This document shows positions 21,629 through 36,104 of a stretch of 36,104 bases of DNA, piece after piece. The notes beneath the pieces were generated by a model, which was given only the letters and a program-made list of their open reading frames with translations, ran no database searches and was not told the origin of the DNA. Source of the DNA: Aneurinibacillus thermoaerophilus (lineage in GTDB: Bacteria > Bacillota > Bacilli > Aneurinibacillales > Aneurinibacillaceae); assembly GCF_900099925.1 (NCBI RefSeq), contig NZ_FNDE01000025.1, positions 1 to 36,104 on the forward strand, in the 5' to 3' direction. A program made the position numbers and the translations under genes. Each line of letters begins with the position of its first letter. The first letter of the stretch is position 1.

Positions 21629-22015
21629 CGCTTCCGACTCCCTTTTTTAATTTACTATATGCTTCATTAAGCAAAAAGTCAATTATTCCAATTAATTTAA
21701 TCTATTTAATTCGTCATTTTTAAATAAGGAAGAGCCTGTTTAGCTAAAACTTCCCTATTTCTTTCCCCTTTCCTTAACACATGCCCTCTTAGCCGATATC
21801 CCTATCTTTCTGTTCCCACATACCCATTCATGTATGTTCTCCCAGTACCGCTGTAATTTAAAACGTATATATCGCTTTAAATCAATAAAGCAACATATAT
21901 TTTCCTTCTGAAGTGCAAGCAGGAAAAATTACCGATGTGCTAATCGCATAATATCACTTCGATGCGGAATTTTAAGACTAGGAATCACCAAAATTAACCT
22001 CAGGAGGCTATACAT
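21629..22015. other. 387-bp gap: no gene seen; contains the spore-gene promoter
   Basis: The sequence is AT- and pyrimidine-rich. I see no ORF with a ribosome binding site, no RNA gene and no clear repeat. The only signal is the CATAATA element at 21947-21953 serving the downstream spore-protein gene. Confidence 0.6.
21923..21953 (+). promoter_or_regulatory. sigma-G-type promoter of the SASP gene
   Basis: CATAATA (21947-21953) fits the sigma-G -10 consensus CATAHTA. A poor GAAAA -35 match lies about 18-19 bp upstream. Placement about 60 nt before the SASP start agrees with forespore expression known for this family. Confidence 0.5.
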
Positions 22016-34550: not shown

Positions 34551-34625
34551 GTAATATGATTTAGAGGAAGTATATATCGCTTTTCCACTTTATAGCAACA
34601 TATCTTTTCTGAATCTTTATGATCA

Positions 34626-35940
<1,315 letters not shown>

Positions 35941-36066
35941 CATTATTTTACACTTCACTGAACTATATGTAAAGACTCCGTATCCGTTTAATCCGTGCCT
36001 GTTCCAATCAATCTGTACATGCGTATATAAATAAATCATATTTGAAGTCACATTTTTGCGTGAGTG

Positions 36067-36096
36067 GTTTCAATTCCTCATAGGTAAGCTATAAAC
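36067..36096 (-). CRISPR. Single terminal CRISPR-like repeat of an array lying beyond the right edge
   Basis: The 30 bases begin GTTTCAATTCCTCATAGG on the plus strand and end CTATAAAC. Read on the minus strand they start GTTTATAGCTTACC and end TATGAGGAATTGAAAC. This has the length, the central CCTATGAGG and the ATTGAAAC 3' tag of a widespread type I-B/III repeat family. Only one copy fits inside the window, followed by eight bases (AACTGCAT) that would begin a spacer. The orientation implies minus-strand transcription with the leader outside the window, making this the last repeat. Recognition rests on similarity to known repeats, and no second copy can be seen. Confidence 0.7.
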
Positions 36097-36104
36097 AACT
36101 GCAT

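Follow-up and report, generated by a model that had tools for sequence, protein, structure and literature searches.

Does the 30-nt CRISPR-like repeat that lies eight bases short of the end of a 36,104-nt stretch of Aneurinibacillus thermoaerophilus DNA mark the end of an array, or is it a lone copy that stands there by itself? The stretch as a whole (hereafter the window) constitutes bases 1-36104 of a 50,019-bp contig (C26), in which the following 2,635 bases (36105-38739) are N. Our answer, to which we give a probability of roughly 0.93, is that an array of type I-B, read leftward from a leader that stands beside cas2 at about C26:39104-39320, ends with this motif as its leader-distal repeat. 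CRISPR array ends are of a well-known kind and their annotation is routine; the main value of this one is that it leads on to a type I-B locus whose Cas8b is strongly diverged and which holds a candidate for CRISPR autoregulation. The features concerned are collected in Table 1.

Table 1. Features of the CRISPR locus, its trpS flank and related repeat units elsewhere in the genome; unprefixed coordinates are window positions.
Feature	Coordinates	Strand	Basis
CRISPR repeat, type I-B, most likely leader-distal (last)	36067..36096	minus (array sense)	Rfam CRISPR-DR2, 44.4 bits; identical repeats at C26:38809-39103
First 8 bases of the adjoining, presumed spacer	36097..36104	minus	between repeat and N run from 36105
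cas6-cas8b-cas7-cas5-cas3-cas4-cas1-cas2, in transcription order	C26:39321-47834 (L013:4322-12835)	minus	NCBIfam and PADLOC
CreR-like element	C26:46998-47073	opposite to cas	repeat end, predicted promoter, guide match
CreR-like element with target site	C26:46917-47079 (L013:11918-12080)		promoter, handle, guide, TTTTA flank
Trailer, last repeat to T-box leader, no predicted terminator	35927..36066	minus	terminator scan and folding
Predicted promoter of trpS T-box transcript, TTTACA-17-TAAAAT	35945..35973	minus	consensus scan, 10/12
T-box leader of trpS	35674..35926	minus	Rfam T-box, 127.8 bits
T-box terminator	35691-35659	minus	terminator scan
trpS, tryptophan--tRNA ligase, downstream of array trailer	34626..35630	minus	NCBIfam TIGR00233, 387.1 bits
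Second array, GTTTGTAGC repeat variant, conserved leader, internal N run	C33:130326-131535 (L014:6327-7536)		
C68 mini-array: leader end, one repeat, one spacer, half repeat	L016:5396-5485		
Dispersed single repeats	C95:43486, C95:46634 (L017:5487, 8635), C61 (L033:1501)		related downstream segment
C55 repeat and truncated repeat	L015:567-662		adjoining apparent transposase frame (by eye)

The repeat lies, to the base, where the original prediction had placed it, and the CCTATGAGG core and ATTGAAAC tag named there are both present on the minus strand. The Rfam CRISPR-DR2 model covers it at 30 of 30 model positions with a score above the gathering score of 37; the same model returns 17 matches at E<=10 in the genome as a whole, 13 of them above the cut-off, and in the control genomes it returns matches in 11 of 14, above the cut-off in none. 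Genome-wide, the 20-nt core of the repeat recurs at 10 exact sites (14 at <=2 mismatches; 0 for a reversed control pattern), six of which are on C26, all in the same orientation, and on both strands of the window no other ungapped match to the 30-mer exceeds 20/30. No ORF of at least 80 aa lying wholly within the window overlaps the repeat. The window repeat and its core copies across the genome are not a product of chance. A candidate for a decayed terminal repeat 66 bp farther left (36001-36030; 14/30 match) was rejected as not significant, since 1.1% of plus-strand window positions score at least 14, as do several neighbouring offsets.

The first 200 bp to the right of the window repeat, where the lack of a second copy was to count against an array, read N from 36105 onward. 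Beyond the N run, the sequence resumes with a damaged half repeat, followed by five repeats identical to that of the window (C26:38809, 38874, 38941, 39007 and 39074, the last ending at 39103) and separated by four distinct spacers of 35, 37, 36 and 37 nt. The array had been expected to extend rightward with repeats every 64-70 bp and unique spacers between them, and the observed spacing of 65-67 bp agrees. Between the first repeat and cas2 lies a leader of ~217 nt. Aligned, over the 300 nt that precede the first repeat, with the second array of the genome, on contig C33, it matches in 227 of 278 aligned columns, with the far 83 nt on the C26 side being cas2 coding sequence and the last 22 nt identical. 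Since the leader stands on the right, the direction of the array is leftward, which puts the window repeat at its trailer end, as had been proposed. We infer that the array continues from its visible part across the N run to the window repeat; the distance from 36067 to 38809 amounts to 41.4 repeat units, and provided that the size of the N run is right and that it consists of array throughout, the whole may hold ~46-47 repeats. Repeats often interrupt draft assemblies, and N runs lie inside both the C26 and the C33 arrays. Compared with phages, the visible spacers yielded no convincing protospacer; a comparison with plasmids gave candidate matches.

The cas genes that had been expected within ~15 kb are found 3.2-11.7 kb to the right of the window end, as a full type I-B set (cas3, cas5, cas6, cas7 and cas8b, together with cas1, cas2 and cas4) in which cas2 is followed by the leader and then the array. 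Where the repeat family had been given as I-B/III, these linked genes are of type I-B. NCBIfam models score above cut-off for cas1 (type I-B model), cas2, cas4, cas3 (helicase and HD), cas7 (Cst2/DevR, I-B) and cas6; cas5 exceeds the cut-off of the general model and stays below that of the I-B-specific one. Cas8 is matched by PADLOC as Cas8b (E 2.9e-29) and by no NCBIfam or Pfam model. Relatives of this protein numbered zero in the other 10 of 11 family, 14 of 15 order and 397 of 398 class genomes, which are overlapping sets (protein search, E 1e-5), and a scan of genome contigs with Cas8 confirmed none. It follows that this Cas8 is either strongly diverged or rare. The array is presumably expressed and processed: Cas6 would cut each repeat and leave the 8-nt ATTGAAAC handle on the crRNAs, which would in turn direct Cas3 and a Cascade of Cas8b, Cas7 and Cas5 to invaders. 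Some array transcripts may run as far as the trpS T-box terminator.

Two other readings of the window repeat have to be weighed against this one. It could be a solitary repeat that belongs to no array, i.e., a stray unit like those on contigs C68, C95, C55 and C61, or else a remnant left behind by an insertion in the stretch now read as N; stray units do exist in the same genome, and the stretch that would join the window repeat to the array reads N. Yet it has the orientation and the exact sequence of the repeats in the array 2.7 kb away, the gap between them, at 41.4 repeat units, is of ordinary length for an array, and no leader-like sequence lies to the left of the window repeat. We hold a solitary repeat to be very improbable. 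Alternatively, the window repeat could close a different array, for instance one serving a type III system, that is parted from the I-B array at some point within the N run. Its identity to the I-B array repeats speaks against this, as does the lack of any type III gene among the ORF translations of C26:35000-50019 (inspected by eye), and such an arrangement has next to no probability. Against our preferred reading stand the 2,635 N bases between the window repeat and the visible array, the half repeat on their right, which is not intact, and the lack of a convincing phage protospacer for the visible spacers.

With the window repeat taken as the leader-distal unit of the I-B array, the trailer would separate it from the trpS T-box leader by 140 bp (36067 to 35926), a distance that had been put too low, at ~125 bp. 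The terminator said to be absent from this interval is indeed not found by a consensus scan for intrinsic terminators, and the trailer folds at the level of shuffled sequence (z -0.02). A predicted promoter at 35973-35945, absent from the original prediction, is one of 5 promoter-like sites in the region scanned, where 2.9 are expected. Since trpS has its own predicted promoter as well as a T-box terminator, readthrough from the array into the T-box is possible, and trpS has no need of it. That an array without a terminator of its own ends at the trpS T-box, with readthrough feeding trpS whenever tRNA-Trp is uncharged, we consider very improbable; were this so, CRISPR transcription, in a locus with its cas8 promoter under CreR feedback, would be physically coupled to tryptophan stress. 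The literature, at the level of titles and abstracts, offered nothing on point for a link between CRISPR, T-box and trpS, nor for array readthrough.

Homology upstream of trpS with one relative (G010) stops at window position 35931, just past the T-box, and inspection by eye revealed no cas gene among the ORFs of that relative's contig (G010:C252:1-9000); for relatives other than G010, conservation of an array beside trpS was compared over a flank of ~1.5 kb. This trpS shows 72-73% identity to those of G010 and G012 and 58-61% to those of the five congeners with a match; in another congener, G002, there is no trpS match at E 1e-60. Replacement of the trpS gene is possible.

Outside the window, the gap between cas6 and cas8 holds a candidate for a CreR RNA, a class whose primary paper reportedly appeared in Cell Host Microbe in 2023. 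The last 20 nt of the repeat recur in this gap (C26:47037-47056), with the ATTGAAAC handle intact and 2 mismatches; taken as a full CRISPR-DR2 match, the remnant reaches 20.6 bits where the cut-off is 37. Upstream of it lies a promoter-like TTGTCT-17-TATAAT (C26:46998-47026), in a region with 10 such sites where shuffling predicts 4.2. On the 3' side of the handle comes TATTGAGT and then, by eye, what appears to be a decayed second repeat. The 5' 17 nt of this presumptive guide match C26:46917-46933 at 16 of 17 positions, the first 11 unbroken, and the matched target follows directly on the predicted -10 box of cas8 (TTGACA-17-TATTAT, 11/12), starting 16 nt before the predicted start of cas8.

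In dinucleotide shuffles of the 135-nt gap, 0 of 20,000 reach 16/17 (with the 17-nt guide length having been picked after the match was seen) and 4 of 20,000 reach an 11-nt run. Among 72,174 window positions, none matches the guide at 16 and the best at 14. The 17-nt pattern, when one position is left free, occurs exactly at the guide and the target and nowhere else in the genome; at 2 mismatches there are four more sites, and a reversed control gives 3 matches at <=2 mismatches. The target is preceded by TTTTA, and TTA is the most effective PAM of the type I-B system of Parageobacillus thermoglucosidasius, a different system from this one (PMC10551041). The candidate is well formed in having a predicted promoter, an intact handle, an unbroken 11-nt seed and a PAM-like flank, and on these sequence features it would probably be a working CreR. 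Three points count against it: the interval of ~8 nt between the repeat segments is very short, no relative with a similar cas8 could be set beside it, and in congener G002 the region upstream of cas6 has only a weak repeat-like unit (21/30), for which a seed match was sought and not found. The same congener carries, between cas6 and a CRISPR array (L078:9107-9361), a match to Rfam BsrG (76.3 bits), by its Rfam name presumably a type I toxin-antitoxin RNA.

The genome also carries other repeat units. No cas genes were detected by tblastn in the 14 kb around the C33 array. On the array strand, the final C33 repeat and each of the two C95 units are followed by a predicted terminator. The scan gave none on that strand for C68, where by eye a hairpin followed by T is nonetheless seen. 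The handle of the C68 repeat has a terminal T in place of C, and those of the single repeats read ATAGAAAC on C95 and GGAGAAAC on C61. The array leader end is present at the C95:43486 and C61 units and absent at C95:46634. The spacer starts of the C68 and C95:43486 units occur elsewhere in the genome only at 1-2 mismatches, one such site being the further unit on C61, and within 1 mismatch the C68 spacer start has no further genomic match. Part of the segment downstream of the C95 and C61 units is also present in congener G001, where the 400 nt inspected hold no CRISPR-DR2-like repeat or leader; since this copy lacks the repeat, the segment could be an intergenic element in its own right. Nothing in the phage collection matched the C95 unit, and titles and abstracts gave nothing on point for lone repeats that carry a CRISPR leader.

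Similar units occur in viral sequences. Paenibacillus phage Scottie (MH460825.1; L087:3001-3075) has two intergenic repeat-like units 8-9 nt apart, both with the ATTGAAAC handle, a spacing that resembles that of the CreR candidate, and a viral contig from IMG/VR (L100:817-846) has a single exact 30-nt repeat beside several frames resembling helix-turn-helix regulators (by eye). Separately, a 40-nt sequence stands twice in the window as a direct repeat (21865-21904 and 34570-34609; 80% identity), in gaps between predicted genes; it may be a small dispersed element.

The locus resembles the type I-B system of P. thermoglucosidasius (PMC10551041) in that its repeat is 30 nt long and bears the ATTGAAAC handle, its spacers measure 35-37 nt, its leader adjoins cas2 and all eight expected genes are present. 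It differs from this known type I-B system in that its Cas8b is strongly diverged and matched by PADLOC Cas8b models only, and in that no terminator is predicted where its trailer meets a T-box leader.

CreR RNAs, according to the review PMC12737573, lead Cascade to the promoter of their own cas genes and react to the load of crRNA. In the cas6-cas8 gap, a promoter is predicted, the degenerate repeat keeps its handle whole, and the guide matches the region of the cas8 promoter with its 5' end; the putative element resembles a member of this known class of Cas-autorepressing RNAs. Unlike the CreR RNAs of that account, its repeat-derived segments are ~8 nt apart, and because only these few nucleotides lie between them, the guide match runs into the second segment. 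Haloarchaeal CreA genes keep the handle in the first repeat and lose it in the second (PMC9458426), a pattern that the candidate shares. Like CreA antitoxin RNAs (PMC9458426, PMC8501985), the candidate has two diverged repeats, the first with a handle, and a partial 5' guide match beside a PAM-like sequence; it departs from the CreA of these sources in being aimed at cas8, and inspection of the gap by eye revealed no toxin gene. Finally, the stray units of this genome, the pair in phage Scottie and the one exact 30-mer from IMG/VR are like Racr and phage solitary repeat units (PMC10651486) in sitting outside arrays, whereas the window repeat, unlike the solitary units covered there, is best read as part of an array.
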